Shown here: piece after piece, positions 1 to 56,336 of the stretch
Numbering within the stretch: the stretch's first letter is position 1
Layout: every line of letters begins with the position of its first letter
Assembly (NCBI GenBank): GCA_036873755.1
Contig: JAVTVY010025233.1
Coordinates: 1-64,000, forward strand
Direction: 5' to 3'
Source of the DNA: Hanleya hanleyi
Taxonomy: Eukaryota > Mollusca > Polyplacophora > Lepidopleurida > Hanleyidae
Length of the DNA: 64,000 nt
The notes under the pieces: generated by a model
Told to the model about the DNA's origin: nothing
Databases searched by the model: none
What the model saw: only the letters and a program-made list of their open reading frames with translations
Program-made: the position numbers and the translations under genes

Positions 1-111
1 GGTGACCGGAACTGACCTTTGACCCCGGCGCGCAAAGGTTTCCACCGCTCCGCGGTGGAAACCTTTACACTGCGCGCCGGGGTCAAAGGTCAGTTCCGGT
101 CACCTTTAGCG
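1..111. repeat. Palindromic hairpin with DR1-like motif
   Basis: The two halves are inverted copies of each other, GGTGACCGGAACTGACC... and ...GGTCAGTTCCGGTCACC, around a short centre (CCACCGCTCCGCGGTGG). Each arm carries GGGTCAAAGGTCA, a nuclear-receptor DR1-type motif, and a GGTTTCCACC segment. Closely related hairpins occur near 12,450 and 38,430-38,690, always upstream of a zinc-finger gene. The left limit is set by the window edge. It could be a regulatory palindrome or an element end; which one is unknown. Confidence 0.8.
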
Positions 112-504
112 ACGTACACCAAACAGAAGCGAGTATTTAAAATCCGTCACAGAGCTCTCGTCCAATCAGAAGCGAGTATTTTGACCCGGTGCATTATGGG
201 ACATATCCAAGATGGCGGTTCCAAAATGACGGATCCAACATGGCGGCTCCAAAATGCGCCGGGGTCAAAGGTCAGTTCCGGTCACGTGAACGGAAGCGGA
301 AGTGACCTCCGGAGCTCCGGAGCTCCGAGTTCTCTTGTAGCAACGCCCGTCAACGCCCGGTGGTGGCGTCGGAGCTCCGGAGCTCCGAGTTCCATGAGCT
401 CCGGAGCTCCAAGAGCTCGGCGAGCTCGGAGCTCTTGCATATAAACACACACATGCATCTGTGAAAGCTTCATTATACGCCTGGTGTCCGTGGAGATGAG
501 AGCC
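112..504 (+). promoter_or_regulatory. Promoter region of the zinc-finger/ATPase gene
   Basis: CCAAT boxes occur in the repeated motif CCAATCAGAAGCGAG (about 160). A YY1-like AAGATGGCGG lies near 208, and GTCACGTGAAC plus CGGAAGTGACC (E-box-like and ETS-like) near 280-308. A run of GGAGCTCCGGAGCTCC palindromes follows between 310 and 430. A TATA box TATAAA is at 440-445, about 60 bases before the chosen ATG. The same pieces recur at other element genes in the window. Binding by these factors is inferred from motif identity only. Confidence 0.6.
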
Positions 505-1761
505 ATGGTTTACGCATGTCACTTGTGTTCGAAGTCATTTTCCACGCCATTTAATCTACGTAGACATATACAGCGAAGCCATCTCAAGGAACGGAGTCCC
601 GATAACGTGCAAATTCAAAGTACGCGCGAGGAACGATCAACACCTACGTCACACACGACAGTATTAGAGCACCCTTATACGATGACGGTGAGCGGCCCTA
701 CGGGGTGTGGAAAGACGTCCTGGGTGATGAAGTTCTTAGAGGAAGGTGTGGCAACCCCAGCTCCGACACGTGTTGTTTGGTGTTATAGCCAATGGCAGCC
801 CGCCTACGAAACTGCACGACTACAGAATGTGAGCTTTGTTCCAGGAATTCCTCACGACATAGACGAACCCTATTACTTCGATTCCGAGCAGACCAACGTG
901 GTAGTGCTCGATGATCTGATGAGTGCGGCCAAGGACAATTCGAAAATCGCCGACCTATTCACCAAAGGGTCCCATCATCGAAATCTGTCCGTCATCTATT
1001 TGACTCAGAATCTCTTTCCTCAAGGGAAGGCGTCCAGAGATATTGCCTTGAACTGCCAATACTTTGTGTTGTTCTCCAATCCCATTGATAGAGCACAAAT
1101 CCGTGTGTTTGGTAGTCGAATTTATCCTCAGAACATTGACCATTTTATGTGGGCGTTTCAAGAAGCGACAATTCGTCCGTACGGCTACCTGTTCGTAGAT
1201 TTAAAAGCCCATACCCCCGAAGATCGTCGGCTGACGACCCACCTGTTACCCGGCGAGGAATCACCACAACGGCCTATACCCCTACACCATCCGCCGAGTG
1301 CACTCCTGGCAGAGCAGCAGCAGAAGCCCACCCCCATACAGCGGGCCCGCTTCATACCATCAGTCCTGGAATATCACCCAACCGTGAAGGCCCAACCCGA
1401 GGTTGAAGAACATAATGTGAACTCGAGGCTATGGAAGGATTTGTTCAAAGAAAGTATGGACGCCGAGATGGGCGGGATGTTGGAGGCCACAGGAAACAAG
1501 TTTCAACGCAAAGGGTATTCGAAAGAGGAAGCTGCAATTTTAGCCCATAACAGATTGGCACCCAGACTACGACGGGCTTTACGTCAGCAGTATGTCGACT
1601 TACTGACCCATATGAAATTGTTGGATAAGGACCCAGTCCATATGGAAATTGAAAGAACAGCGTCGATGTTGAAAACCTCGGGCATGAACTGGAAAGCGGC
1701 GTATGTCAGAGCAATAGCACAAAAGAAACATTTGTTCGAACGCATCATTAAACAACGTTAA
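505..1761 (+). CDS. C2H2 zinc-finger protein fused to Polinton-type packaging ATPase
   Basis: A C2H2 finger (CHLC...HIQRSH, residues about 5-26) is followed by a P-loop ATPase with Walker A GPTGCGKT (about 64-71) and Walker B VVVLDDLM. The signature FTKGSHHR...VIYLTQNLF matches the packaging ATPase at 55216-55824, a FtsK/HerA-type enzyme that pumps DNA into capsids in Polintons and related viruses. After a Pro-rich linker comes a helical basic C-terminal domain of about 110 residues, also present in the next gene. The frame is open from GTG at 484. ATG 505 was chosen because it has a good context (GCCATGG) and gives the MVYAC start seen as MFTC/MAYTC in the other finger genes; ATG 496 is possible. 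The Polinton ATPase has no finger, so this is a fusion. DNA targeting by the finger is inference. Confidence 0.85.
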   Translation: MVYACHLCSKSFSTPFNLRRHIQRSHLKERSPDNVQIQSTREERSTPTSHTTVLEHPYTMTVSGPTGCGKTSWVMKFLEEGVATPAPTRVVWCYSQWQPAYETARLQNVSFVPGIPHDIDEPYYFDSEQTNVVVLDDLMSAAKDNSKIADLFTKGSHHRNLSVIYLTQNLFPQGKASRDIALNCQYFVLFSNPIDRAQIRVFGSRIYPQNIDHFMWAFQEATIRPYGYLFVDLKAHTPEDRRLTTHLLPGEESPQRPIPLHHPPSALLAEQQQKPTPIQRARFIPSVLEYHPTVKAQPEVEEHNVNSRLWKDLFKESMDAEMGGMLEATGNKFQRKGYSKEEAAILAHNRLAPRLRRALRQQYVDLLTHMKLLDKDPVHMEIERTASMLKTSGMNWKAAYVRAIAQKKHLFERIIKQR

Positions 1762-1987
1762 AGCATTAAGAAAGTGTGTTAAAGCGTTGAGACGAGCGTT
1801 AAGGCGTAACGACGGGCGTTGACGGGCGTCACTGCATTTCGATGAATTGGTGTCAATTCCATGAAATCAGAGCTTCTGAGCTAATTCACCAGGGCGTTGA
1901 AGCGTTGAGCTAAGCGTTGATGGGCGTTACTGTCTATAAAAGCGAGCGTATTCCCAAAACACGCACAGTCGACGTTCAACCGTCAAC
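1762..1987 (+). promoter_or_regulatory. Intergenic promoter with GCGTTGA repeats and TATA box
   Basis: The stretch is rich in degenerate GCGTTGA/GGGCGTT repeats. It contains a block around CAGAGCTTCTGAGCTAATTC that recurs at about 36,640 and, inverted, at about 40,400. TATAAAAG at 1935-1942 lies 46 bases before the next ATG, a normal spacing for a TATA-driven gene with a short leader. Confidence 0.6.
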
Positions 1988-2560
1988 ATGGCTTATACTT
2001 GTTCTGAGTGTGAACGCACGTTCACCAGACATTACGATATGATGCGACACCAGAAAAATATACATGGGACTGAAGACGCCGAGGAGCCCGTTGAGGCAGA
2101 TACTGATACAGAGATTGATGAGAGTGCATCGACTGATACCGAATCCAAGATGGCTGACAGTCTATCTACTGATATGGAGAGCTTGACCTCAGAGAATCAG
2201 CCTTCATCCCAGGAAAGTGAGGCAGAACCTACCTTCTGGGATCGTATTGTGACAGCAGCTATCAATACTCACGCTGAAGCGATCGAGGACGCCGGAGAGG
2301 ATAATTTACAACAGACGTACACCCAAATGCGCCCCCGCATCAGGAAAACAGCCATGGCGATCTATGAACAGTATACCTTACTACCGCTTGAAATGAAAGG
2401 GGACCCCACGCACAGGTCCATCATGAAGACCAAGCGTCACTTGGAAGAGGATATGGGTTTACCACCCACCGAGGCCCTGGAAAATGCGATCAAAATGCGC
2501 AAACAACTGTTTCAGGACATGCTGCCCGAAGAATATCCAGGCCTGGCCGACGATGATTAG
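1988..2560 (+). CDS. Acidic C2H2 zinc-finger protein with ATPase-gene C-terminal domain
   Basis: The 190-residue protein starts with a single C2H2 finger (CSECERTFTRHYDMMRHQKNIH). A strongly acidic Ser/Thr/Glu-rich stretch (about 30-90) follows, then a helical domain beginning FWDRIV. That last domain resembles the C-terminus of the neighbouring finger-ATPase protein: compare DPTHRSIMKTKRHL here with DPVHMEIERTASML there, each followed by an Ala/Lys-rich helix. It is therefore the ATPase gene's tail without the motor. The layout (finger plus acidic segment) suggests a DNA-binding adaptor or regulator, but function is unknown. It has its own TATA box and its own 3' hairpin with AATAAA. Confidence 0.8.
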   Translation: MAYTCSECERTFTRHYDMMRHQKNIHGTEDAEEPVEADTDTEIDESASTDTESKMADSLSTDMESLTSENQPSSQESEAEPTFWDRIVTAAINTHAEAIEDAGEDNLQQTYTQMRPRIRKTAMAIYEQYTLLPLEMKGDPTHRSIMKTKRHLEEDMGLPPTEALENAIKMRKQLFQDMLPEEYPGLADDD

Positions 2561-2709
2561 AATAAACGGTTCAGAATGAACATGACCGAAGAAGGAACTC
2601 TCTGAAATGGCGACTTCTGATTGGACAAGAATACATCTAACGGACAGGAATGAATAGGACAGATGCAAATGGCGGTCTCTGATTGGACAAGAGTCTTTCT
2701 TGAATTGTA

Positions 2710-2766
2710 AACATACCCAACGCGGCTCCCCCAGCGTGGGTATGTTATGATGGAGGGGAAAATAAA
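2710..2766 (+). terminator. Conserved 3'-end hairpin plus AATAAA
   Basis: A perfect 10-bp stem AACATACCCA/TGGGTATGTT (2710-2746) has an inner CGC/GCG pair and loop GGCTCCCCCA. AATAAA follows at 2761-2766. The same stem, loop and spacing to AATAAA occurs at five other well-matched sites plus one diverged site in this window. Confidence 0.75.
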
Positions 2767-2844
2767 CTATATGAAAAAAAACTTGTTGTTGTTGTTGTTC
2801 CCTCATGTGTCATCCTTGTTGTTGTTGTTTTCTCTCTCTCTCCG

Positions 2845-3110
2845 GTCTATATCATGGCGTCAAAACGTCTAGCAGGACCCATACAAGGACCAGTTTTCGA
2901 CACTAGGTGACCACATCCCGACGGAATGGCCAGTTTTCGACACCGGATGTGCCGCCATCTTGAACATACGTGCCGCCATCTTGGATATGGCCCATAATGC
3001 ACCGGGTCAAAATACTCGCTTCTGATTGGCTGAGAGCTCTGTGACGGATTTGAAATACTCGCTTCTGATTGGACAAGAGCTCCGCATTACTCACTGGCGG
3101 CCATCTTGTA
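2845..3110. repeat. Shared block with CCAAT and YY1-like motifs
   Basis: It contains the phrases CAGTTTTCGACACTAGGTG, GCCGCCATCTTG (twice) and CTCGCTTCTGATTGG (twice). The same block recurs at about 34,190-34,400 and 42,480-42,700, in opposite orientations within the nested element, and in part at 118-250. No coding potential was recognised. Confidence 0.6.
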
Positions 3111-3870
3111 CCCACCTCCCACATGTCACTCACACTGGCGGCCATCTTGTACCCACCTCCCACATCTCACTCACACTCGCGGCCATCTTGTACCCACCTC
3201 CCACATCATGACACTTTCAGTTGTAAATAGTTTTAGTTGTGCGATAGATATGCATGCGACACAGAAAATTCATTCCCACATATTCCACTCACTGGCGGCC
3301 ATCTTGTATCCACCTCCCACATGTCACTCACACTGGCGGCCATCTTGTACCCACCTCCCACATGTCACTCACACTGGCGGCCATCTTGTACCCACCTCCC
3401 ACACATGATGAACAGCTCTCACAGATTTAACAAACATGGGAGACAGTAATGCACTGTTACAATGATCACTGTCATAACATGCACATAAACAGACTCACAG
3501 TGAGTGATGAACAGCTCTCACAGATTTAACAAACATGGGAGACAGTAATTCACTGTTGGTTACAATGATCACTGTCATAACATGCACATAAACAGACTCA
3601 CAGTGAGTGATGAACAGCTCTCACAGATTTAACAAACATGGGAGACAGTAATTCACTGTTGGTTACAATGATCACTGTCATAACATGCACATAAACAGAC
3701 TCACAGTGAGTGATGAACAGCTCTCACAGATTTAACAAACTACTCGCGGCCATCTTGTACCCACCTCCCACATCTCACTCACACTGGCGGCCATCTTGTA
3801 CCCACCTCCCACATCTTGCACTCACTCACACTCGCGGCCATCTTGTACCCACCTCCCACACATGACACTG
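3091..3870. repeat. YY1-like motif array flanking a 99-103-bp tandem repeat
   Basis: GCGGCCATCTTGTACCC units spaced by CACCTCCCACAT lie at 3091-3400 and 3740-3870. Between them (about 3407-3740) a 99-103-bp unit starting GATGAACAGCTCTCACAG is repeated more than three times. The short open frames across the arrays are repeat artefacts. Confidence 0.7.
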
Positions 3871-3879
3871 GCGGACATC

Positions 3880-4460
3880 GATACCTCACTCGACCCCATT
3901 GGTCCATTAGGGGCTTCCCTAGCTCCAAAACGTCTATTTCCATACCCTTGGGCCTCCGCGCATGCGCAGAATGCCGATAGCTCAACCTCGCGCCCAGCCC
4001 ATCAGATGACCCTTCATGAATGCTTCACTTTGATACCTCACTCGACCCCATCGGTCAACTAGGGGCTCCCATAGCTCCAAAAGGCTGTTTTCATACCCTT
4101 CGGCCGCCGCGCATGCGCAGAAGGCCGATATGTCAACCCCACACCCAACCCATTAGATGCCCCTTCACCTAAGCTTCACTTTGATACCTCACTCGACCCC
4201 ATCGGACCATTTTATCTAGGGACTACTTTTTCTCCGCGGAAGCTTTTTCCCGAGACCGAATCACCGCCAAAACCGCGGCCAAACCGCATCACCGCGTATG
4301 AATACATTTTTTTTTTTTTTTTTTTTTTTTTTGCCGGAACTTTTTTTTTTTGCACACCTCCCCAATAACCCCCCCCAACCCCCCAATAACCCCCCAATGC
4401 CCATACACTTATGACGTCACACAAGGTTCTGCGCATGCGCAGTGGGGGGGTATTTCGCCA
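3880..4460. repeat. NRF1-like tandem repeats and low-complexity tract
   Basis: Units contain CGCATGCGCAGAA and the phrase CCCTAGCTCCAAAACGTC, the same family as 7,085-7,900 but inverted. Then come a T tract (about 4,308-4,332) and a C-rich stretch, ending in GCGCATGCGCAG near 4,432-4,442. Confidence 0.6.
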
Positions 4461-5095
4461 ATTTACGTACTACATACTACTCATGTCAGATAACATTGAA
4501 CCAGATTCACATGTCTGAATGTCTGCCTACAGTGAGCCTATATTAACATCATTATTACGGTGAACCTATCTCAATATACCACAGCATCATGAACCAATGT
4601 TAACATCAGGGAAAAAGGAACCAATGTTAGCATCATTACACGGTGAACCAATGTTGAAATCCTGACTAAATGAACTAATGTCAATGCATGTAAATGGTGA
4701 ACCTATGTTAACGCAATTAGAATGACATCATTTAGAGATATTTTAATATGTTCTGTAGGTTCTAACTCCACGACAGAGAGTGGAAGTTGCTAAAATTTTA
4801 AACTGCTAGAATTGTGAAATCTATTCAGTTTTTGTATCGACCAATGTGTGAACCAAGACAAAAAAAAATTACACTGACTGTCGCTAATATATGTAATAGA
4901 AATTTTAAAAAAAATTCATCAATGAAACTACCAGTAGGATCATACGTCCCTGAACTGCTTAAAAATAGGTGAGTAGAAGTTGTGTAACTTACGTGACATG
5001 GAATGTAAATTACAAAAGAGTCACGTAAGTTACACGTAACAAAACCATGTAAAATGGGAAGCATTTTTTGTTGAAAGCAAATCCAAAATATTTAT
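4461..5095. other. Unassigned AT-rich stretch
   Basis: It has degenerate repeats of GTGAACCTATGTTAACAT (4,540-4,720). No gene or recognised element was seen. Confidence 0.4.
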
Positions 5096-6535: not shown

Positions 6536-6904
6536 CTACAGACACTGGTGATCACAATGGATCACCAGAGAGCCTAATTTGTTTGGCACTTTAATTTACC
6601 TCCTGTGCCAGACAAACATGGTACAAACCATGCTGTCCTAATGCATAATGGAGTTAATATGAAATGAATTGATTTACGTGTTATCAGACTTTAGATTTCA
6701 TTTCTCTAACAAAATCTAACGTTACGGTTATTTTCCCTCCATTTCCCCATCATTTGTGTGTTAATCGGAGAGAGTGACATGAGTAGTAGTGTAAGAGTAA
6801 ACTGTCGTCCATTTCACCCGGATGTAGAGGTCATTTGTGGCGGAAATGTGGCGGTGAGATCCAATCAGAAGCGAGTAAAATTTGACCTCAGAAATTTGCA
6901 TATG

Positions 6905-7055
6905 ACGTTCTGTGGGTGCAAGATGGCGGCGTGTGGGTGCAAGATGGCGGCGTGTGGGTGCAAGATGGCGGCGTGTGGGTGGAAGAAAGATGGCGGCGCG
7001 TTCTGTGGGTGCAAGATGGCGGCGTGTGGGTGCAAGATGGCGGCGTTCTGTGGGT
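6905..7055. repeat. YY1-like array (GGGTGCAAGATGGCGGC)
   Basis: Six units match AAGATGGCGGC, mostly inside GTGTGGGTGCAAGATGGCGG. The same unit fills both arms of the nested element (33,356-33,560 and 43,330-43,556). Just upstream lie a CCAATCAGAAGCGAG motif and TTGCATATGACGT. Confidence 0.8.
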
Positions 7056-7084
7056 CGTAATGTATACGGGGAATACCTAAATAG

Positions 7085-7925
7085 ACGTTTTGTCACCTAG
7101 GGGAGCCCCTAATGGGCCGATGGAGTTGAATGAGGTATCCATGTGAAGCCTAGGTGAGGGGGCATCTGATGGGCTGGGTGTGGGGTTGACATATCGGCCT
7201 TCTGCGCATGCGCGGTGGCCCAAGCGTATGGAAATAGACGTTTTGGGATGTAGGGGAGTCCCTAATGGTCCAATGGGGTCGAGTGAGGTATCAAAGTGAA
7301 GCCTAGGTGAGGGGACATCTGATGGGCTGGGTGTGGCGTTGAACTATCGGCCTTCTGCGCATGCGCGGTGGCCCAAAGGTATGAAAATAACCGTTTTGGA
7401 GCTAGGGGAGCTACTAATGGTCCGATGGGGTCGAGTGAGGTATCAAAGTGAAGCTTATGTGAAGGGGCATCTGATGGGCTGGGTGTGGGGTTGACATGTC
7501 GGCCTTCTGCGCATGCGCGGTGGCCAAGCGTATGGAAATAGACGTTTTGGGATGTAGGGGAGTCCCTAATGGTCCAATGGGGTCGAGTGAGGTATCAAAG
7601 TGAAGCCTAGGTGAGGGGACATCTGATGGGCTGGGTGTGGCGTTGAACTATCGGCCTTCTGCGCATGCGCGGTGGCCCAAATGTATGAAAATAACCGTTT
7701 TGGAGCTAGGGGAGCTACTAATGGTCCGATGGGGTCGAGTGAGGTATCAAAGTGAAGCTTATGTGAAGGGGCATCTGATGGGCTGGGTGTGGGGTTGACA
7801 TGTCGGCCTTCTGCGCATGCGCGGTGGCCCAAGGGTATGGAAATAGACGTTTTGGGATCTAGGGCAGCCACTAATGGTCCAATGGAGTTGTATGAGGTAT
7901 CCATGTGAAGCCTAGCTGAAGGGGT
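7085..7925. repeat. Five ~152-bp tandem repeats, each with an NRF1-like palindrome
   Basis: The 10-mer GCGCATGCGC recurs at 7204, 7357, 7509, 7661 and 7813, a period of 152-153 bp. Each unit also contains GACGTTTTGG, GGGGTCGAGTGAGG and CATCTGATGGGCTGGG. The same unit occurs at 33,600-34,180 and, inverted, at 42,700-43,260. Confidence 0.85.
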
Positions 7926-8890
7926 ATTTGATAGCTGGGTGGGTGCATGTAAAAATTTTCCTGAAAAAAAAAACGGAACTCGGACTTTATCGAAAAATCC
8001 GGAAAAATGTTTAAATATGGGGTATGGGGGTATATGGGTCGCCGGGCTTAACGGGGCTCGCCTATCAATAGAGTTATCTCCCCCTAGTTCCAGGGTGGGT
8101 GTATGTAAAAAATTTCCTGAAAAAATACGGAACACGGACTTTATTCTAAATTACGGGAATATGCCTATATGGGGTATGAGGGGTATAGGACCATCCTGGG
8201 AAACCTACTTCTCGACATTTGCGGTATAGGTTGTGGGGTCTCGTTTTCTTAGTCTCGTCAAGACAAACATGATAGGAAGTGTACCGGAGCGAAACGGTGA
8301 AATTTGTGAAAAAGTACGATATAGCCCCATATAGACATATATATATAAATATATAGTCCCATACTGGGGGTATAGGTTCAATGTTTATCCTACTGGGAAA
8401 CCTACTTCTAGACATTTGCGGTAGCTAGGGTTGTGGGGTCTCGTTTTTCACGTCTCGACATTTAGAACATGATAGGAAGTGTCGTGGAACGAATCGGTGG
8501 AAATTTTTGAAAAAAGTCACCAAGGCCTGGGTAGGCCCATAGGCCTATACTGCATGGCTATGGGTGTATAGGGCCATACGGGGTGGACATGTTGGAGTCT
8601 AGGTGAGTCCCTGTTGGTCCAATGGGGTCGAGTGAGGTCTTATTTTGAAGCTCTCGTGGAGGAGCACTTGACTACACTAATGGTTCGTCCGCGTTCAATA
8701 GTCTGCGCATGCGCAGACTGGCCCGTAGTATAGAAAGTAGGCATTTTGGGGGGTATGTGGGTGTGTGTTTGGGTTAGAGATGGGCTATTCACGGTTCGAA
8801 TGGGTCGTGTGAGGTATCCATGTGAAGGCTAGATGTGGGGGCTAGACTAATTATATATTCTGTATTATACAATCGGATAGCGGTTGTCGT
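7926..8890. repeat. Long shared non-coding block
   Basis: It contains repeated phrases such as CTGGGAAACCTACTTC, CATGATAGGAAGTGTC and CGAATCGGTGAAA. It is collinear with 34,480-35,560 and inverted relative to 41,480-42,420. TGCGCATGCGCAGAC lies near 8,702. No gene was seen. Confidence 0.7.
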
Positions 8891-8922
8891 GAATAACAAC
8901 AAGTTCAGCAATGTTTATATAG

Positions 8923-8977
8923 TTTATTATCCCCAATGTTACATCATACCCAGGCTGGGGGAGCTGCCCTGTGTATG
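8923..8977 (-). terminator. Conserved 3'-end hairpin and AATAAA (minus strand)
   Basis: The stem CATACCCAGG...CCTGTGTATG (8945-8977) has a GGGGGAGC-type loop. AATAAA reads on the minus strand at 8928-8923. It terminates the pseudogene at 9129-10039. Confidence 0.65.
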
Positions 8978-9128
8978 TTTAGTATGTTAACAGCAAAACA
9001 AATTGAAATATCAAACACCATGTTTTATTATTTAATGCACCGTCACATTAGGTACAAGTGTTTACTGAGCTCAAGTCAACGATCAGCATGTAGACATAGA
9101 GAGTATGTGCGGCATGTTATGGTATTCA

Positions 9129-10039
9129 TCAATGCGCGGGTGACGCATTCAACCGATGGCGGTGGTCGGTCAGCTTGGTCAGGAAAAACGTGATATTGGT
9201 TACCCTCTCTACCACCCATTGTATGTTGGGGCGTTGGCGATGTGCCCATCTCAAGGGTTCCACGGTGTCCAGTATCTCCAGCATCGTCTCTAGTGACCTC
9301 CGGTTAATGATGGTGAACGGCTGGTCACATAGATATTATTGCCGGGATAATAATACCGTAACTGGCCCGTCTTTTTGTGACGTAAGATGTACCCGAAAGC
9401 GACATTCAATTTGAAGGCCGTAGTTTGATCTTTGAAGATGGTTTCCACGTAGCTGCGTAGACGGGTGCGGTTGGTCAGTGGAAAATTGTAAATATCTTGA
9501 ATAGGGCCATGAGGGTGGAAACAGTGCCGTGTCATGGACCAATGGCGCCGATCGATGTCACTCACTGGATGGTTGTCCTGTAAGAGATCGCCCAGAAAAT
9601 GTTCGATGTTGTCAGGCGTATGACTCGAAACCGTAACGCTGGGGTCCGGTTGGATATCCAGGCTCTTCTGAACTGTGGGTATAGGCGGGCTCTCCTTCAT
9701 CGCATCACCAGTGGCGTTCGTCTCCCCGGGCTTATCTTCACTGGGTCTGACCTTCCGCGACTCCTCTTCAGTAGGAAGTTGTCGCTCAAACCGTAGAGAC
9801 GGACCATGAATCAAACGCTGATGCCGTCTTAACTGACTGAAGAGTTGACCACAATCCTCGCATGGACGCTTGCGTCACCCATGAATTGAACGTTCGTGGC
9901 GCAGTAACTGATCCTCCCGATTAAATGACCCTGCGCAGGTTATACAAGTATACCGTGCATCGTTGTGGTTGGAGGCCTCGTGGCGTCGTAAATTATCTAG
10001 ACGAGTAAACTGCCTCTGACAAGTTGTGCAAGTGAACAC
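9129..10039 (-). pseudogene. Dead C2H2 / polymerase-N-domain gene
   Basis: Collinear with the intact gene at 10486-11472: fingers, acidic linker, then the HPVSDIDRRHWSM polymerase-N-like domain. Three lesions are visible. The start codon position reads GTG (10039-10037) where paralogues have ATG. A TGA lies in frame at 9877-9875 (codon 55) where the intact copy reads Pro. The frame is lost near 9330, so the last 60 or so residues read in another frame to a TGA at 9131-9129. The gene lies downstream of the intact copy on the same strand, consistent with tandem duplication. Confidence 0.8.
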
Positions 10040-10228
10040 CTTGGTGGAATCGCCCAGAAAATGTTCGATGTTGTCAGGCGTATGACTCTGTACCTGTCAA
10101 CGCCCGTCGCTACACCTTAACACTCTAACATAACGCCATGATATAGACCGGAGAGAACAACAACAGCAACAACAACAACAAGGATGACACATGAGAGAAC
10201 AACAACAACAAGAAGTTTTTTCATATAG

Positions 10229-10284
10229 TTTATTCTCCCCAATGTTACATCATACCCACGCTGGGGGAGCCGCGTCGGGTATAT
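10229..10284 (-). terminator. Conserved 3'-end hairpin and AATAAA (minus strand)
   Basis: The hairpin is CATACCCACGC / GCGTCGGGTAT (10251-10284) with loop TGGGGGAGCC as read on the plus strand. The minus-strand AATAAA is at 10234-10229. It sits about 200 bases past the stop of the 10486-11472 gene. Confidence 0.7.
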
Positions 10285-10485
10285 TTACAATTCAAGAAGA
10301 TTCTTATCCAATCAGAGGCCACCATTTGCATCATATTCGTTCCTGTCCGTTAGATGTATTCTCGGCTACTCTTGTCCAATCAGAAGTCTCCATTTCAGAA
10401 AGTTCCATCTTCGGCCATGTTCGCTCTGAACCGTTTGTTCTAATCGTCATCGGGCAGGCCAGGATACCGTTGATGAAACATATCC

Positions 10486-11472
10486 TCAGATAGTTGTTTG
10501 CGCATTCTGAGTATCTATCAGTGCATGGGTGAATACTTTCAGCCGATGGGGGTGGTGGGTCAGTTTAACCACGAAGAACGTAACATTGGTGACCCTCTCC
10601 ACTATCCACTTGGTGTTGGGACGCTGTTCATAGGCCCATTCCAAGGGATCCACAGTGTCCAGTTGGGCCAGCATTGTCTCTAGCGACGCCCGATTGGTGA
10701 TTGTGAAAGGATGGTCGTACACTGGGTTGATGGCACTGGAATAGAAATAGCACAATTCACGCGTCATCTTATGGCATAAGATGTACCCAAATGCTACATT
10801 TAATGTGAAGGACGTAGGTTGGTCACTGAAGATGGCTTCCACGTAGCTGCGTAGACGGGCGAGGTCGGTCAGTCGGAAATTGTACAAGTTCAATATAGGG
10901 CGATGACGGTGGAAGCAGTGTCGGATCATGGACCAATGGCGTCGATACATCTCACTCACTGGATGATCTTCGGGTAAGAGATCGCTGGGAACATCCACCG
11001 CATCTTCCAGAAAATGTTCGTTGTTGTCAGGCGTGTGACTGGAAACAGTAATGCTAGGGACCGGCTGGATATCTAGGCTCTTCTGAGCTGTGGGTATAGG
11101 CGGGCTCTCCGTGATCGCATCACCAGTGGCATTCTCCTCCCCGGGTTCATCTTCAGTGGATCTGTCCCTCCTGGGTGCCTCTTTAGTGGGAAGTTGTCCC
11201 TCATACCGTGGTGACGGACCATGAATCAAACGCTCATGCCGTTTTAACTGACTGAGTCGTTTGAAGAGTTGACCACATTCTTTGCATGGACGCTTGGGTG
11301 GCCCATGAATTGAACGTTCATGGCGCTGTAAATGATCAGGGCGCTGAAACGACAGTGTAGGCCTACATATCGTACAGCTATACCGGGCGGTTCCATCGTG
11401 CTTGGTAGCTTCATGGCAGCGCAAGTCGTGCCGGCGAGTGAATGATTTCGAGCACGTAGTACAAGTGAACAT
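10486..11472 (-). CDS. Three-finger C2H2 protein with Polinton polymerase N-terminal domain
   Basis: This 328-residue protein has three C2H2 fingers in its first 95 or so residues (CTTCSKSF..., CTICRPTLSF..., CKECGQLF...) and a charged, Pro/Thr-rich linker. A C-terminal domain of about 150 residues begins EDHPVSEMYRRHWSMIRHC. That domain aligns along its whole length with the first 170 or so residues of the Polinton polymerase at 45909: shared HPVSxxYRRHWS, HRHRPI, YNFRL, QRPNTKW, VTNVxFFV. The polymerase catalytic core is absent. ATG 11472 follows a TATAAAAAGG at 11525-11517. A role in binding element DNA, or competing with or assisting the polymerase, is inference. Confidence 0.85.
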   Translation of the reverse strand: MFTCTTCSKSFTRRHDLRCHEATKHDGTARYSCTICRPTLSFQRPDHLQRHERSIHGPPKRPCKECGQLFKRLSQLKRHERLIHGPSPRYEGQLPTKEAPRRDRSTEDEPGEENATGDAITESPPIPTAQKSLDIQPVPSITVSSHTPDNNEHFLEDAVDVPSDLLPEDHPVSEMYRRHWSMIRHCFHRHRPILNLYNFRLTDLARLRSYVEAIFSDQPTSFTLNVAFGYILCHKMTRELCYFYSSAINPVYDHPFTITNRASLETMLAQLDTVDPLEWAYEQRPNTKWIVERVTNVTFFVVKLTHHPHRLKVFTHALIDTQNAQTTI

Positions 11473-11780
11473 CTTGGTGGTTGACAGAGTGTCTGATGAA
11501 ACGGCCAGGCCGTTTCCTTTTTATAGCAAGCTAGCTGTTGATATATTTTTAGCACAATCAGTTCAACTTGGACGTCAGCGACAAGAACTCGGATGTAGGC
11601 GCGGACGTCAGCGACAAGAACCCGGATGTAGGCGCGGACGTCAAACAAGTGCACGCTTCTGTGGTGCACCATGTACCCTAGGATGTTCACGAATGTTCCA
11701 CCATCCCGGCTTTCTATCAGGCCCAGGTCAGAAGCTCTCATGGCCCGCATGTGAATGGTCAGTCATATTGTGCGTATGCA
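11473..11780 (-). promoter_or_regulatory. Promoter region with TATA box and 36-bp repeats
   Basis: The minus-strand TATA box reads GCTATAAAAAGG (about 11525-11515). Upstream is a GGACGTCAGCGACAAGAAC unit repeated about 2.5 times (11,570-11,645), with ACGTC CRE-like half sites. The leader GAGTGTCTGATGAAACGGCC also precedes the gene at 38291. Confidence 0.55.
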
Positions 11781-12160
11781 TGTGTGCGTCACTGTGTATG
11801 CATCTGTGTGTGCGTGTGTGTGTGTGTGTACGTGTGTATGTGTGTATGCGTCTGTGTGTATGTATCTGTGTGTATGTGGGTGTATGTGTATGTGTGTATA
11901 CGTCTGTGTGCGTGTGTGTGTGTGTGCTTTGGTGTGTACGCGTGTGTGTGGGCTTGCGTGTACGCGTGTGCGTGTATGTGTATGCGTCTGTGTGTATGTA
12001 TCTGTGTGTATGTGTGTGTGTGCGTGTGTGTATGCATGTGTGTGTATGCGTCTGTGTGTGCTTGCGAGAGTGTGTATGCGTGTGCGTATGCGTGCGTGTG
12101 CGTGTATTCGTCTGTGTGTATGTGTGTGCGTGTGTGTATGCGTGTATGTGTGTATGCCTG
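11781..12160. repeat. TG-rich microsatellite
   Basis: Long (TGTGTA/TGCGTG)n tract. It is open in several frames on both strands, but composition explains this. Confidence 0.9.
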
Positions 12161-12960
12161 ATGTGGCGGTGATTACGAGCTTGGTAGGATTCTAGATTAA
12201 CCTGGGAAGGATGGGCAGTTCCATTTGAACCAATCAGCGGTCGAAAAAAAGAACCAATCAGCGGTCGAACAATCAGCCAATCGATAAGCACCGGATTTTT
12301 CCATATCTCGGGGACTTGGGGTCCCTACGGTAGTCTTTCGACGCGGTTCGCAGATCAGCCGCCATTAGCCGCCATTGTGGGGAAAAAACCCAGACAAACA
12401 GAAACAAGTCTGGACATGTCCAAAGGTCACGCCTCATTCACCCAAACCGTTCACGTGACCGGAACTGACCTTTGACCCCGGCGCGCGCGGTGTAAAGGTT
12501 TCCACTGGTGGAAACCTTTGCGCGCCGGGGTCAAAGGTCAGTTCCGGTCACGTGAACGGAAGCGGAAGTGACCTCACAGTTGGTCAAAGGTCAATAAGGC
12601 CAGTGTCCCGTTAAATCGAGCCTTATTGACATTTGACCTCAGAAATTTGCATATGACGTCACTTCCGGTTTGGGTGAATGAGGCGTGACCTTTGGACCTG
12701 TCCAGACTTGTTTGTGTTTGTCTGGGTTTTTTCCCCACAATGGCGGCTAATGGCGGCTGATCTGCGGACCGCGTCGAAAGACTACCGTAGGGACCCCAAG
12801 TCCCCGAGATATGGAAAAATCCGGTGCTTATCGATTGGCTGATTGTTCGACCGCTGATTGGTTCTTTTTCTCGACCGCTGATTGGTCCAAATGGAACTGC
12901 CTATCCTTCCCAGGTTAATCTAGAATCCTACCAAGCTCGTAATCACCGCCACATCACGCA
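12150..12960. repeat. Large inverted repeat centred on a DR1 hairpin
   Basis: Left arm 12,150-12,450 and right arm 12,640-12,960 are near-exact reverse complements, sharing GAGCTTGGTAGGATTCTAG, CCAATCAGCGGTCGA and CTACGGTAGTCTTTCGACG. The centre (12,450-12,555) is a second hairpin with CACGTGACCGGAACTGACC arms and GGGTCAAAGGTCA. A further segment at 12,560-12,640 reads GACCTCACAGTTGGTCAAAG. The outer edges run into TG-rich and CA-rich tracts, so even the microsatellites are mirrored. Part of this sequence recurs at 50,450-50,525. Confidence 0.85.
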
Positions 12961-13049
12961 TACACACATACACGCATACACATACACACACATGTATAAA
13001 CACGCACACATACATAGTTACACAAATATTTATATATAAACCTTTATAC

Positions 13050-26739: not shown

Positions 26740-27630
26740 TTACACAAATCTCCATAGTTCCCAGCCCAGACGGACTGTCATCTTTTCTGTCACGGGATCG
26801 GTTAAGTCATATAACCTGCATACTCTCTCTTTTAGATTAATGTTAAACATGTTACATATGAACCGAGTTTGTTTTAGACATTTCCTGGCGCATTCAGTGG
26901 AGGAGCGAGCTTTTGTTGTATCGAGGGGTTCGGACATCAACCAAGTATTCCCAGCGCCGTTAGGACCTTTGACACGATTAAATTTGGCGCGTCTGCTCTT
27001 GCTTCCCTGTAGTACTTTCTGATTATCATTGAATTTGTCTTGATCGAAACTTGAGAACTTTATGGTGCTGTTAGAAACATTGCTATACCTTGTAGTTGGT
27101 AATGCAGAAGATGTAATTTCGGTGTCAGCTGTCGAAATATGGTAGTACTGCACAGCGGGGTATTCGCAGAGATAGCGAGCCAAATTGGTACAATCCCGTT
27201 GATGCCAGAAAGCATCTTGAAACATATTTATCCATACCGCACACAATTCAATTGTTTTAGTCTGTGCCAAAATTTGACTAACAGACTGTATGGGATTCCA
27301 GTCAGTAAATATGACTGAGCTGCCATCCAGCCAAAACCATTTTTCGCCTCTTTTTTTGGCAGCTATCCAGAAATGTCCCTTATTGACAATGTTGAAGAAT
27401 TTGTTAAGTTCATTGTTAGTAATTTTCACCAGTTCACCGCCATTTTCCTGACAAAGGTCAACCGCTCTTGACCAAGTTTCTACTGATGTCATGTGAAATG
27501 AAGAGCACGTTTTCTCCCACACCAAGGCATCCCACTGAACCCAATCGGGACATCTGTATGACATTTTACCTTCTTCTGTACTTGTCAATGATATGAGGTT
27601 CGAAAAGTGCCAGATTATCGTGACGAACAT
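26740..27630 (-). CDS. Secreted C-type lectin with PAN/apple domain
   Basis: ATG 27630 (MFVTIIWHF) begins a short signal peptide. The open frame extends upstream to 27720, but that part lacks support. The C-type lectin domain starts YRCPDWVQWDALVW and includes CQENGGELVKI, FWIAAKKRGEKWFWLDG and a final C..LARYLCEY. A Ser/Thr-rich linker with N-glycosylation sequons follows. The PAN domain (about the last 85 residues) has CARKCLKQTRFICNMFNI and CRLYDLTDPV. No EPN/QPD triplet is visible, so calcium-dependent sugar binding is doubtful. The whole gene is one exon. It is the only copy in the cluster with an uninterrupted frame including the signal peptide, so it is the likely functional member. 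Confidence 0.8.
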   Translation of the reverse strand: MFVTIIWHFSNLISLTSTEEGKMSYRCPDWVQWDALVWEKTCSSFHMTSVETWSRAVDLCQENGGELVKITNNELNKFFNIVNKGHFWIAAKKRGEKWFWLDGSSVIFTDWNPIQSVSQILAQTKTIELCAVWINMFQDAFWHQRDCTNLARYLCEYPAVQYYHISTADTEITSSALPTTRYSNVSNSTIKFSSFDQDKFNDNQKVLQGSKSRRAKFNRVKGPNGAGNTWLMSEPLDTTKARSSTECARKCLKQTRFICNMFNINLKERVCRLYDLTDPVTEKMTVRLGWELWRFV

Positions 27631-27892
27631 TGCTTTCGTGTTGACAGGTTTGTGTAGACTGGCTTTTTCCCCCCTATTTCCAAGATGAAGGACAGGTGGC
27701 ATGTACCATACTGTTGTCAAGTTCTAAATCTATACAGAATTCGTCGCCATCCGGCATCTGATCCGTGTAAACACTTTTATCCACATGTACTGTTGTTGTT
27801 GTTGTTTAGCTGTTGTTGTCGATATTCTACAGTATCTGGCTCGCTCCTGATTTTAACTACGCGATTGAACGAGATTGAATAATAAAACTGAC

Positions 27893-30568: not shown

Positions 30569-31462
30569 TTACACAGATCTCCATAGATCCCACCCCAGAC
30601 GGACTGTCATCTTTCCTGTCACAGTTTCTGCTGAGTTATATAACCTACATACTCTCTTTTCCCGATTAATGTTAAACATGTTACATATGAACTGGGTTTG
30701 TTTTACACAGTTCGCGGCGCATTCAAGGGGGGAGCGAGCATTTATTGTATCGACGGGTTCGGACATCAACCAGGTATTCTCAGCGCCGTTAGGTCCTTTG
30801 ATGCGATTAAACAGACCGCGTCTGCTCTTGCTTCTTTGTCGTACTTCCTGATTATCATTGGAGTTGTCTTGATCAAAACTTGAGAACTTTATGGTACTGT
30901 TAGAAACATTGCTATACCTTGTAGTTGGTATTGCAGAAGATGTCATTTCGGTCTCGCCTACCGAAATATGGTAGTATTGCACAGCAGGATATTCACAGAC
31001 ATAGGGATACTTTATGGTACAATCCCATTGATGCCAGAAACCAATTCCATCCATATTTAGCCATACCGCACACATTTCAATCGGTTTAACATTCTGTGCA
31101 AATAAATGACTGAGGGACTTTTGCGCATGCCAATCGGTAAATACGACTGGGCTGCCATTGGACCAAAACCATTTTTCGTCTATTTTTTTAGCAGCAATCC
31201 TGAAGTTCCTCTTATTGCCGATGTCAAAAAATTGGTTGAGGTCATTGTTATCAATTTTGATCAGTTCACCGTCATTCTCCTGGCAAACGTCAACAGCGTT
31301 TGGCCAAGTTATGTAAGATGTTGTGTGAAATGAATAGCACATTTCTTTCCACACCAGGGCATCACATTGAATCCAGTCGGGGCATCTGTATAACATTTCG
31401 CCTTCTTCTGCACTTGTCAATGGTATGATATTTCAAAAGTGCAAGATTATCGTGGAGAACAT
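30569..31462 (-). pseudogene. C-type lectin/PAN gene with stop in signal peptide
   Basis: The lectin domain (YRCPDWIQCDALVW, CQENDGELIKI, KWFWSNGSPVVFTDW, YPYVCEY), linker and PAN domain (CAANCVKQTQFICNMFNI) are all open to the TAA at 30569. The homologous ATG at 31462 is followed in the tenth codon by TGA (31435-31433), where the paralogue at 26740 reads Ser. No other in-frame ATG would restore a signal peptide; the next Met lies at the start of the lectin domain. Export is therefore probably lost. An upstream exon supplying a leader is possible but nothing points to one. Confidence 0.7.
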
Positions 31463-33599: not shown

Positions 33600-34480
33600 T
33601 AGACGTTTTGGAGCTAGGGGAGGCACTAATGGGCCGATGGGGTCGAGTGAGGTATCAAAGTGAAGCCTATGTGAGGGGACATCTAATGGGCTGGGTGTGA
33701 GGTTGAAATATCGGCATTCTGCGCATGCGCGGTGGACCAAGTGTATGCAAATAGTGGTTTTGGAGCTAGGGGAGTTACTAATGGTCCAATGGGATCGAGT
33801 GAGGTATCAAAGTGAAGTATTCGTGAAGGGGCATCTGATGGGCTGGGGGTGGGGTTGAAGTATCGGCATTCTGTGCATGCGCGGTGGCTGAAGGGTATGG
33901 AAATAGACGTTTTGGAGCTAGGGGAGCCCCTAATGGTCCAATGGAGTTGTATGAGGTATCAGTGTGAAGCATTCGTGAAGGGGCATCCGATGAGCTGGGT
34001 GTGGGATTGAAATATCGGCATTCTGCGCATGCGCGGTGGCCAAAGGGTATAAAAATAGACGTTTTGGAGCTAGGGAGTCCCTAATGGGCCAATGGGGTCA
34101 TATGAGGTATCAAAGTGAAGCATTCGTGAAGGGGCATCTGATGGGCTGGGTGTGCAGTAGGAATATCATTCTGCGCATGCGCAGACGCAATGCGGAGCTC
34201 TCGTCCAATCAGAAGCGAGTATTTCAAATCCGTCACAGATCTCTCAGCCAATCAGAAGCGAGTATTTTGACCCGGTGCATTATGGGCCATATCCAAGATG
34301 GCGGCACGTATGTTCAAGATGGCGGCACATCCGATGTCGAAAACTGGCCCTTTTGTCGGGATGTGGTCACCTAGTGTCGAAAACTGGACCTTGTATGGGT
34401 CCTGCTAGCCGTTTTGGAGTTAGGGGAGCCCCTAATGGGCCGATGGAGTTGTATGAGGTATCAAAGTGAAGTATATTTCA
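33600..34480. repeat. NRF1-like tandem repeats and CCAAT/YY1 block, left arm
   Basis: TGCGCATGCGC recurs in units like those at 7,085-7,900. Then at 34,190-34,400 comes the block with CCAATCAGAAGCGAG (twice) and CAAGATGGCGGCAC (twice). Confidence 0.7.
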
Positions 34481-36892: not shown

Positions 36893-37171
36893 ATTTACAA
36901 TTCAAGAAGATTCTTGTCCAATCAGAGGCCACCATTTGTATCTGTCATATTCGTTCCTGTCCGTTAGATGTATTCTCGGCTACTCTTGTCCAATCAGAAG
37001 TCGCCATTTCGGAAAGTTCCATCTTCGGCCATGTTCGCTCTGAACCGTTTGTTCTAATCGTGATCGGGCAGGCCAGGATACCGTTGAAGAAACATATCCT
37101 CAGATAGTTATACCGAATCTGTGCTGTATTATACCACATGAATAACAACAAGTTCAGCAATGTTCATACAG

Positions 37172-37226
37172 TTTATTATCCCCAATGTTACATCATACCC
37201 AAGCTGGGGGAGCCGCCCTGGGTATG
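37172..37226 (-). terminator. Conserved 3'-end hairpin and AATAAA (minus strand)
   Basis: Stem CATACCCA/TGGGTATG with loop in GCTGGGGGAGCCGC at 37194-37226. AATAAA on the minus strand at 37177-37172. It follows the 37398-38291 gene by about 170 bases. Confidence 0.7.
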
Positions 37227-37397
37227 TTTAGTATGTTCACAGCAAAACAAATTGAAATATCAAACACCATGTTTTATTATTTAACGCACCGTCACATTAG
37301 GTACAAGTGTTTACTCAGCTCAAGTCAACGATCAATATGTAGACATATAGAGTATGTACGGCATGTTATGGTATTCATCAGTGCACGGGTGACGCGT

Positions 37398-38291
37398 TCA
37401 ACCGATGAGTTGGTGGATCAGCTTGGTCACGAAAAACGTAACATTGGTGACCCTCTCCACTGTCCACTTGGTGTTGGGGCGTTGTTGTTGGGCCCATTTC
37501 AAGGGATCCACGGTGTCCAGTTTCTCCAGCATCGTCTCTCGTGCCGCTCTATCTGTGATGGTAAACGGTTGGTCAAATACCCGGATGTTACTGCTCGGGT
37601 AAAAATGTCGGGCTTGGTCTGTGTCCTTATGCTGCAGCACATAGCCAAACGCCAGATTTAATTTGAAGGACGTAGCTTGGTCATTGAAGATAGCTTCCAC
37701 GTAGTTGCGTAGACGGGTGAGGTCAGTCAGTCGGAAATTGTAGATATCCTGAATAGGGCGATGACGGTAGAAACATTGCCGGATCATGGGCCAATGGCGC
37801 CGATAAATGTCACTCACTGGATGATCTTCGTATGACAGATCGGTGGGAACATTTATGGGTTCGTCCACGAAGTGTACTTTGCCCTCCACGTCGTACAAAA
37901 TCTGGGCCAAGGTCTGGTCGTCGGAATTTGACTGTTGAATTAGGGCGACATCATCATCGGCCCTCGTGCGATGGGTGGGAGTTCCCCCTGTTTCGATATT
38001 GATGCCTACGGGCTCTTCTACCTGCAAACGTGGCTGTGGAACAGGGTGTCGTGTGCGTTGGTGTCGCAGCAACTGACTGGTCAGTTTGAAAAGCCGACCA
38101 CATTCTTCGCATGGACGCTTGGGTACTTCATGGCGTGCACGTGTGTGGCGCTGTAAATGATCCGGGCGCTGAAACGACAATGTACATATCGTGCAGTTAT
38201 ACCGGGCGGTTCCTTCGTGCTTGGTAGCCTCATGGCGGCGCAAGTCGTGCAGACGAATGAATGATTTCGAGCACGTAGCACAAGTGAACAT
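37398..38291 (-). CDS. Three-finger C2H2 protein with polymerase N-terminal domain
   Basis: The 297-residue protein has three C2H2 fingers (CATCSKSF, CTICTLSF, CEECGRLF). A linker follows that differs from the 10486-11472 paralogue, then the domain EDHPVSDIYRRHWPMIRQC ... QQQRPNTKWTVERVTN. The domain matches the start of the Polinton polymerase at 45909 closely (HPVSDIYRRHWS, RPIQDLYNF, QRPNTKWTVE). The C-terminus ends at LIHQLIG. Because it lies inside a Polinton terminal repeat, product and putative target are physically linked. ATG 38291 follows a TATAAAAGGG box. Confidence 0.85.
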   Translation of the reverse strand: MFTCATCSKSFIRLHDLRRHEATKHEGTARYNCTICTLSFQRPDHLQRHTRARHEVPKRPCEECGRLFKLTSQLLRHQRTRHPVPQPRLQVEEPVGINIETGGTPTHRTRADDDVALIQQSNSDDQTLAQILYDVEGKVHFVDEPINVPTDLSYEDHPVSDIYRRHWPMIRQCFYRHRPIQDIYNFRLTDLTRLRNYVEAIFNDQATSFKLNLAFGYVLQHKDTDQARHFYPSSNIRVFDQPFTITDRAARETMLEKLDTVDPLKWAQQQRPNTKWTVERVTNVTFFVTKLIHQLIG

Positions 38292-38440
38292 CTTGGTGGT
38301 TGACAGAGTGTCTGATGAAACGGCCAGACCGCTTCCCTTTTATAGCACGCTAGCTGGTATCATGTTCGGGCACCTCCGGGTCTCTTCGGTGATCTCCGTG
38401 ACATCTTCGGTGACCTCCGTGTCCCGTGTCACGTGACCGG
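38292..38440 (-). promoter_or_regulatory. Promoter of the nested finger gene
   Basis: The minus strand reads GCTATAAAAGGGAAGCGG (about 38,345-38,328), then the leader GAGTGTCTGATGAAACGG shared with 11,490. A run of GGTGACC/CTCCGTG motifs lies upstream. Confidence 0.6.
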
Positions 38441-38692
38441 AACTGACCTTTGACCCCGGCGCGCAAATGGGCGTCAACGCCCGGTGGTGATGGTGGGAAC
38501 TCCCGTGCGGCAGAGCTCTTGGATCGGATCTCTTGGAGCTTAAAGCCTGTGGAGCTCAGATCTCGGAAGTGACATTTGCATACGACCTCTGTGAGGTCAC
38601 TTTCGCTTCCGTTCACGTGACCGGAACTGACCTTTGCCCTCGGCGCGCGCGGTGTAAAGGTTTCCACCGCGTGGAAACCTTTGCGCGCCAAG
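38430..38692. repeat. DR1/E-box palindrome cluster in the element centre
   Basis: GTGTCACGTGACCGGAACTG then GACCTTTGACCCCGGCGCGC at 38,430; a second copy at 38,614-38,690 forms a hairpin (GTAAAGGTTTCCACCGCG / CGTGGAAACC). GAGGTCACTTTCGCTTCCG lies between them. It is homologous to 1-111 and 12,450-12,555. Confidence 0.75.
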
Positions 38693-38853: not shown

Positions 38854-39059
38854 TGAATACCATAACATGCCGTACATACTCTATATGTCTACATGTTGAT
38901 CGTTGACGTTACGGAGGTGACCGAGGAGACACGGAGGTTACCGAAGATGTCAGCGCTCCGCCCGCGACTTGGGGATAGTTGAACTGAATGTGCTAAAAAT
39001 AGATCACCAGCTAGCGTGCTATAACAGGGAAGCGGCCTGGACGTTTCATCAGACACTCT

Positions 39060-39838
39060 TGTATAATCTGCGCACGGTCATTCAATCGGGAGGATAAATT
39101 ACTGTGTCATGAGAGGGTACTCCACGCGGGTGCGACGGTACTATGTAATGATTGTGGTCGACTCTTCAAACGACCCAGTCGGTTTAGACGGCAACAACGT
39201 TTGATGCATGCCCCGTCTCTACGGATTGGGCGACAACTTTCCACTAAAGAGGAGCCGCGGAAGGTCAGACTCAGTGAAGATGAACCCGGGGAGACGAACA
39301 CCACTGGTGATGCGATGAAGAAGAGCCCGCCTATACCCACGGTCTAGGAGGGCCTGGATATCCAGCCGGACCCCAGCGTTACGGTTTCGAGTCATACGCC
39401 TGACGACATCGAACATTTATCGGCGCCATTGGCCCATGATCCGGCAATGTTTCTACCGTCATCGCCCTATTCAAGATATCTACAATTTCCGACTGACTGA
39501 CCTCACCCGTCTACGCAACTACGTGGAAGCCATCTTCAATGACCAAGCTACGTCCTTCAAATTAAATCTGGCGTTTGGTTATGTGCTGCAGCATAAGGAC
39601 ACAGACCAAGCCCGATATTTTTACCCGAGCAGTAACATCCGGGTATTTGACCAACCGTTTACCATCACAGATAGGGCGTCACGAGGGACGATGCTGGCGA
39701 AACTGGACACCGTGGATCCCTTGAAATGGGCCCAACAACAACGCCCCAACACCAAGTGGGCAGTGGAGAGGGTCACCAATGTTACGTTTTTCGTGACCAA
39801 GCTGACCGACCAACCCATCGGTTGAACGCGTCACCCGT
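39060..39838 (+). pseudogene. Broken finger/polymerase-N gene, right arm
   Basis: 39,060-39,420 is a degenerate version of the finger-linker region, with frame losses and a TAG (in ACGGTCTAGGAG) where paralogues read Gln. From 39,436 the polymerase-N domain is intact for 129 codons (MIRQCFYRHRPIQDIY to DQPIG, ending 39825). It is the inverted counterpart of 37,400-37,810. Confidence 0.75.
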
Positions 39839-45800: not shown

Positions 45801-45801
45801 G

Positions 45802-45810
45802 TATAAAAAG
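45802..45810 (+). promoter_or_regulatory. TATA box of the polymerase gene
   Basis: GTATAAAAAGCGC lies about 100 bases upstream of the polymerase ATG. Confidence 0.5.
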
Positions 45811-45908
45811 CGCAAGTCCTATTGACCTTGCCCCTCCAAAGAAATAAGAAGTCGTGACCGATTCACTGTCAAAATCGGCTCTATTTTACAGGAGTATATA
45901 CGATCAGG

Positions 45909-51437: not shown

Positions 51438-51438
51438 G

Positions 51439-52743: not shown

Positions 52744-52745
52744 CT

Positions 52746-53938: not shown

Positions 53939-53971
53939 GATAACTGAGCTGTCCTGCTGCTGCTGTTGGTT

Positions 53972-55059: not shown

Positions 55060-55151
55060 GTACAACTAATGCTAGAACCCACAACTGTGCTCTTTTTATC
55101 TACTTCAGAGAACAGAGACCAAGCCAACCCTGCTGTGGTATTCATTCTTTT

Positions 55152-55212
55152 TTATTATCCCCATCATCAACACACACACCCCCCAGCTCGGGGAGCCACT
55201 GTAGGTGTGTTT
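55152..55212 (-). terminator. 3'-end hairpin and AATAAA, diverged version
   Basis: On the minus strand AACACACCTAC...GTGTGTGTT encloses GTGGCTCCCCGAGCTGG, the same GGCTCCCC-AGC loop as the other hairpins. AATAAA follows at 55157-55152. The stem sequence differs but the pairing and layout are kept. Confidence 0.65.
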
Positions 55213-55215
55213 ACA

Positions 55216-56294: not shown

Positions 56295-56336
56295 GGTCGG
56301 ACGTGGAATGAAGGATGACGGTAGTGGTGTCTGGCT

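Follow-up and report, generated by a model that had tools for sequence, protein, structure and literature searches.

Zinc-finger fusion genes in three elements

We analysed a 64,000-nucleotide stretch of the genome of the mollusc Hanleya hanleyi (contig JAVTVY010025233.1, positions 1 to 64,000; hereafter the window), in which genes joining C2H2 zinc fingers to modules of Polintons, which are virus-like elements, lie in three elements denoted A, B and F. One gene fuses a finger to a packaging ATPase and a helical tail (finger-ATPase-tail, or finger-ATPase), one joins a finger to a tail alone (finger-tail), and the others join three fingers to a domain from the N terminus of the polymerase PolB (three-finger+polN).

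505–1761 (+): finger-ATPase-tail gene, open frame of 418 amino acids; C2H2 finger at residues 3–26, packaging ATPase at about 52–250, disordered linker at 259–303, helical tail at 302–417
1988–2560 (+): finger-tail gene, open, 190 amino acids; C2H2 finger, acidic linker and tail
10486–11472 (−): three-finger+polN gene, open, 328 amino acids; element B
37398–38291 (−): three-finger+polN gene, open, 297 amino acids; left arm of element F
9147–10039 (−): three-finger+polN copy, broken; element B
39051–39822 (+): three-finger+polN copy, broken; right arm of element F

The original prediction of four finger fusions is confirmed by open frames, C2H2 matches and domain homology; it had overlooked the two broken polN copies. 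PF00096 (C2H2) matches the finger-ATPase-tail and finger-tail proteins with E values of 2.1e-5 and 1.8e-4, both slightly below the Pfam cut-off, and the polN proteins with 3.5e-8 (10486–11472) and 4.6e-13 (37398–38291). The ATPase domain is homologous to the packaging ATPase of a Polinton in the window (55216–55824; 44% over 199 columns) and has the B204 fold of an FtsK/A32-like packaging ATPase, although it is fused to a finger and a tail. The two tails are homologous: a hidden Markov model of ATPase tails matches the 190-residue finger-tail protein with a score of 34.5 bits (E 3e-10), against 3.3 bits for the highest-scoring of 200 shuffles. The polN domains are homologous to the N terminus of Polinton PolB (63% and 66%). 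In the protein database no homolog of finger-tail was found; three-finger+polN has three, of which two contain polN and the third is a zinc-finger protein of a bat.

The elements and their non-coding parts are as follows.

1–4481: element A, right end only; holds the finger-ATPase-tail and finger-tail genes
4476–4481: proposed right end of element A (ACTACT); the left end is outside the window
1–309: central region of element A; palindrome at 1–104, repeated 25-mer at 261–285, motif also at 12455–12551 and 38433–38641
2708–2793 (+): 3′ hairpin of the finger-tail gene (loop GGCTCCCCCAGC) with AATAAA signal; matched by 10188–10287, 37135–37230 and other copies
6782–13014: element B; proposed left end AGTAGT at 6782, two polN copies, centre near 12455–12551, right arm stopping at about 13014
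33058–59745: fold-back finger element F; target-site duplication (TSD) GGGGTG, ends read AGTAGTGTA

Over 77 bases, the proposed right end of element A has 80% similarity to the ends, proven or proposed, in other copies. No TSD was found for element B. Element F measures about 10.8 kb without an inserted Polinton, and its arms, each with a three-finger+polN copy, are about 94% identical. A and F have common subterminal sequence (for example 2861–3088 and 34189–34416, 96%), as do B and F. One finger gene had been placed inside a Polinton, but the nesting is the reverse: the Polinton at 43650–59529 (TSD AACACC) is inserted in the right arm, a terminal repeat, of element F. The flank of A's right end (4482–4487, CATGTC) is the reverse complement of that of B's left end (6776–6781, GACATG), perhaps a trace of inversion of the intervening 2.3 kb, or chance.

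Repeats and 3′ hairpins shared by the finger genes, also noted in the original prediction, lie far above chance expectation. The central 25-mer, common to A, B and F, has seven matches at two or fewer mismatches where none is expected. The hairpin loop has 11 at one or fewer mismatches against 0.11 expected; six are exact, and three (33917, 42454 and 42957) sit in other repeats and not downstream of genes. The 3′ hairpin is present in A, B and F and is followed by AATAAA in the finger-tail gene and both open polN genes, all three of the tested genes having the hairpin. AATAAA was not found within 300 bases past the stop of the finger-ATPase gene.

A mobile element with two recognised genes

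Copies were sought in the 2.48-Gb genome that the window comes from. First-look candidates numbered 37,798 for finger-ATPase, 45,100 for finger-tail, 46,149 for polN and 29,320 for the Polinton capsid gene. Scoring was limited to the best of these, so the counts that follow are lower bounds, biased to the best-kept copies. Among 100 scored finger-ATPase copies (98–100% identity), 93 have no stop and 16 are identical; for finger-tail, 149 of 150 (99–100%) have no stop and 40 are identical. The 132 scored three-finger+polN copies (91–100%) include 114 without a stop, and the 97 scored capsid copies (96–100%) include 92.

Matching 6-base flanks were found for 4 of the 168 AGTAGT...ACTACT pairs tested in the window and in fetched loci (given L numbers): element F, the window Polinton and two elements with two genes each, L024 and L026. 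A third two-gene copy lies on contig C1484.

L024, 3199–9196: 5998 bp; TSD GGCGTG, 40 of 40 terminal bases paired
L026, 661–5805: 5145 bp, a nominal length because of a 100-base assembly gap inside; TSD GACCCC, 40 of 40 terminal bases paired
C1484, 26251–32756: 6.5 kb; AACCGG on both sides, terminal repeats 98–99% identical

All three copies (5.1, 6.0 and 6.5 kb) have terminal inverted repeats and a 6-bp target duplication, which is a Polinton trait and is also present in the window Polinton. The end of L026 is identical to the Polinton end for 14 bases, and those of nine others for 6–13 bases. The sole open reading frames (ORFs) of at least 190 residues in L024 and L026 are those of finger-ATPase and finger-tail, and no integrase, PolB, capsid or protease match was found. 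The C1484 element has no integrase, polymerase or capsid gene in the part searched (L009 and L029; the final 1.8 kb, in good part a match to the left terminal repeat, lies beyond it). Two further candidates, L034 and L038, have no matching right end within the stretch fetched. Finger-tail, whole or broken, follows finger-ATPase after 229–239 bp in 22 of 22 full copies with enough sequence (two of these rows being one locus). No genes other than finger-ATPase-tail and finger-tail are recognised in this mobile element.

The window Polinton

The Polinton inserted in element F is the sole one that we read end to end with a TSD, and it has no finger gene.

43650–59529: Polinton, 15,880 bp; terminal repeats, TSD AACACC on both sides, ends 5′-AGTAGTATATAAAGG
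45909–49707 (+): PolB, split over three overlapping frames
50832–51497 (−): adenain-type protease (PF00770, E 0.0017, below cut-off)
51439–52743 (−): putative major capsid protein, identified from gene position and 51% identity to its counterpart in the tubeworm Polinton L002; without a Pfam match
55216–55824 (−): ordinary packaging ATPase, finger-less
56337–57398 (−): rve integrase (E 7.8e-11), with a weak chromodomain match (E 0.08, below cut-off)

Judged as an adintovirus it has PolB and rve, with a capsid by homology to L002 alone. The 3′ untranslated region (UTR) of its ATPase gene, which lies within 55130–55240, is homologous to the finger-gene 3′ UTRs, hairpin and signal included; alignment scores are 64, 51 and 57, against maxima of 33, 32 and 37 in 300 shuffles. 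Because the same hairpin-and-signal UTR follows the Polinton's own ATPase gene, the finger genes are tied to the lineage of the window Polinton. Two tandem related genes (57451–57981 and 58443–58844; 45% over 112 residues) lie between the integrase and the terminal repeat.

Origin of the finger+polN genes

None of the 132 scored polN copies lies in an open frame of more than 410 residues, and the three-finger+polN genes therefore stand alone, none being a fragment of an open PolB. In the window, both open copies are truncated at the same point and continue into the same non-coding sequence, with ratios of non-synonymous to synonymous substitution rates of 0.30 in polN and 0.40 in the fingers. 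In tubeworm L002, a single long PolB frame contains two finger-like motifs ahead of polN, one of them truncated where the contig ends. The fusion therefore probably descends from a fingered PolB, and its novelty lies in existing as a separate gene. The two PolBs read in the Hanleya genome (window and L050) have no finger before polN, where the stand-alone gene has three; for the window PolB this was inspected by eye in the frames from 44700. The window PolB has one finger-like motif further inside (residues 329–350, E 0.035).

The finger-ATPase family

From 5421 candidates, 584 proteins are homologous to the finger-ATPase at E ≤1e-3. Among the 120 listed, a C2H2 finger precedes the ATPase in 67 and a variant finger in 10, while 12 start inside the finger; 31 have none by pattern, many of them beginning at or past the finger's end. 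The tail profile matches 45 of the 120 at E <1e-3. Hosts named among those listed include the sea anemone Actinostola and a metagenome-assembled genome (MAG) of Thiodiazotropha, which is a clam symbiont. No description of finger-fused packaging ATPases was found in the literature searched, which did not cover most subscription papers.

No relative was confirmed among viral contigs in four scans, which used the finger-ATPase by itself, the Polinton ATPases and the capsid protein among their queries, and genomic context was therefore taken from MAG contigs and from the Hanleya genome. Loci L001–L008 carry Polinton-type genes on animal-type contigs within bacterial MAGs (Escarpia and Bathymodiolus symbionts, groundwater and others) and are probably eukaryotic contamination. 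The Polinton-type ATPase has no finger in 8 of 8 read (window, L001–L006 and L008). The window finger-ATPase forms a long branch grouped with 15 other finger-ATPases (support 92/84). A single origin of all finger-ATPases is neither rejected nor shown by the approximately unbiased test (p-AU 0.179, 33 finger rows against 7). The finger label changes twice on that tree, in which the L007 row was replaced and L008 left out, and three times on a larger one, in which the branch of the mis-cut L007 row is not meaningful. Finger and ATPase remain joined across deep divergence.

What lies across the centre

The sequence facing a finger-ATPase across the element centre was read at 32 places, taken from the 100 best matches and mostly chosen for sequence spanning the centre, and so not a random sample. 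A second, inverted finger-ATPase, whole or partial, lies there in 13 of the 32 and a terminal repeat in eight, among them L046, which also has a protease fragment 1.4 kb away. A polN gene is found in three (L032, L040 and L045), a finger-tail piece or weak relative in two (L023 and L025) and a same-direction finger-tail in one (L044); nothing was recognised in L028, with 454 bases only, or in L031. The remaining three are described below. L036 has capsid, protease and polN pieces farther upstream.

Fold-back forms with near-perfect inverted arms occur at L017 (contig C16109), L018 (C46211) and window 33058–59745. In L017 the arms of 2346 nt, reported as 100% complementary, are separated by 126 nt. 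These forms resemble the snap-back or defective genomes of a linear replicon with protein-primed synthesis, integrated at a later time. At L025 a fresh copy faces, on the other side of the centre, a diverged and broken relative of the finger-ATPase/finger-tail pair (2631–4027); older waves of the two-gene element therefore probably exist.

Proposed satellites of Polintons and the alternatives

We propose, at about even confidence and from sequence comparison, that the finger genes may form a family of non-autonomous Polinton-type elements that behave as satellites of capsid-encoding Polintons and redirect their packaging. The observations behind this are the two-gene elements with Polinton-like ends, the fold-back polN relatives, the high recent copy number, the open capsid Polintons and the recombinants described below: a mobile element without the complete set of replication and capsid genes shares its genome with a possible helper, for which 97 capsid copies were scored. 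The suggestion in the original prediction of parasites of a Polinton gains real support from these elements, which are mobile, have ends of Polinton type and 6-bp duplications, and encode two finger proteins as their sole recognised products. Such a satellite would borrow the polymerase, integrase and capsid of a Polinton for replication, integration and packaging. The finger-ATPase would replace or compete with the helper's packaging motor, favouring satellite DNA through its fingers, with the finger-tail protein as a partner through the common tail; three-finger+polN would bind satellite ends or origins in replication. One C2H2 finger alone is seldom sequence-specific, and targeting by it is conjectural; specificity would need oligomerisation, which ring-forming packaging ATPases would supply.

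Several observations weigh against the satellite proposal, and some of them favour a different account, in which the finger genes are accessories of an autonomous Polinton lineage and the two-gene and fold-back elements are passively moved deletion derivatives, still open through recency. Recent finger-ATPase copies have 16 synonymous and 55 non-synonymous substitutions, a ratio of 0.98 that indicates no purifying selection and is expected for passively multiplied DNA; recent finger-tail copies give 0.75, both ratios being pooled over non-independent copies. (Three polN copies in this test were all flagged as frameshifted and are not relied on.) Selection on the finger-ATPase is consequently supported by deep conservation alone. 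Intact copies in the fetched loci number only 20 of 25 for finger-ATPase and 22 of 33 for finger-tail, and the 3′ hairpin loop was not found in L001–L008. Polinton genes lie across the centre in the remaining 3 of the 32 places (L021, L022 and L030), in two of them the integrase-capsid half. L021 and L049, on one contig, carry in open frames finger-tail, finger-ATPase, the centre, integrase, ordinary ATPase, p53, penton, p52, capsid and protease. Except for 137 bases, the junction in L030 is the same, with 99% identity over 4 kb, although the capsid gene there is interrupted and also cut by the contig end; since the junction is shared, a Polinton carrying finger genes has itself multiplied. 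In L022 and L050 the finger pair faces a PolB half with a cut protease. These composites demonstrate contact between the two kinds of DNA; at the same time, nothing else supports the accessory account as strongly. Yet the breaks fall inside Polinton genes (residues 123–152 of p57 remain in L021, residues 82–175 of the protease in L022), so we read the composites as recombinants, and the fusions seem to be the derived state. (L021 also retains just a fragment of the first tandem gene, 57451–57981.) The finger-less window Polinton, the second inverted finger-ATPases and terminal repeats across the centre and the long-standing union of finger and ATPase likewise argue against accessory genes, an explanation that we consider credible but rather unlikely.

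The original prediction turned on whether ordinary Polintons carry the same fusions, and the answer is divided: L002 has finger-like motifs before polN and one Polinton lineage here carries finger-ATPase and finger-tail, but the Polinton-type ATPase itself is finger-less. The L002 motifs are also compatible with an autonomous, capsid-less Polinton-like lineage with its own fingered PolB, of which the window copies would be reduced forms. In keeping with such a lineage, a finger-ATPase and a decayed PolB stand head-to-head in Bathymodiolus L007. The ancestor of the elements may thus have been autonomous, a further point against satellites. This separate lineage is improbable, as L024 and L026 have no PolB, integrase or capsid match, the best-scoring polN copies reach no long frame (more distant copies being unscored), and a packaging ATPase without a capsid lacks an obvious use. 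A domesticated control layer, the other possibility raised in the original prediction and here taken as one by which the host restrains Polintons, is close to refuted: C2H2 fingers are common in host regulators, but the finger genes are not stable and low-copy, being numerous, 98–100% identical and mobile, with TSDs and terminal repeats.

If packaging by satellites is the correct reading, packaging piracy extends from phage satellites to animal genomes. A heavily multiplied element in which just a packaging motor and a partner protein are recognised would be difficult to account for if no capsid were being made, or had been made, somewhere, and the two-gene element therefore gives a direct handle on whether Polintons still form particles in animals. 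More broadly, and with somewhat less than even confidence, animal genomes may hold abundant endogenous Polinton satellites with their own finger-guided packaging motor (and, in the fold-back relatives, a finger-tagged piece of a replication protein), copied and packed instead of the helper, which would make them the animal equivalent of phage satellites. The finding points to a wide protein family, with its 584 homologs.

Other features of the window

ORFs with C-type lectin and PAN domains at 26740–27720 and 30569–31420 are probably host genes. A further large inverted repeat occupies 62229–64000 (62552–63557 against itself, 80%).

Comparison with known systems

The elements resemble Polintons/Mavericks (Polintoviruses) and adintoviruses in their AGTAGT ends, as in the window Polinton, and in terminal inverted repeats, 6-bp duplications, packaging ATPase and the polN of PolB. 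They differ from Polintons in that the two-gene copies have no integrase, PolB, protease or capsid, a finger and a helical tail are joined to the ATPase, and finger+polN is a separate gene. Nine capsid-less Polintons in a 2014 survey had lost ATPase and protease as well (PMC4028283), whereas the two-gene element is capsid-less and retains an ATPase; the words 'zinc' and 'finger' are absent from the main text of that survey. Ziftr zinc-finger genes occur in some adintoviruses and an adomavirus, and so likewise place zinc-finger proteins within adenovirus-like animal elements, but by the description in the sections consulted they are separate genes, not fused to a packaging ATPase or polN (PMC11071296). 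Non-autonomous DNA transposons, as outlined in part of PMC6431247, similarly have cis ends without transposition enzymes, whereas here two open virus-type genes are kept, one of them conserved across distant hosts. Phage-inducible chromosomal islands and other phage satellites are, in the portion of PMC6739421 consulted, small helper-dependent elements too, and the satellite protein Rpp binds the helper's small terminase and redirects helper packaging. By analogy, these bacterial systems are a precedent for a satellite protein that redirects packaging, with the difference that the two-gene element encodes a whole packaging motor, by which redirection would take place.
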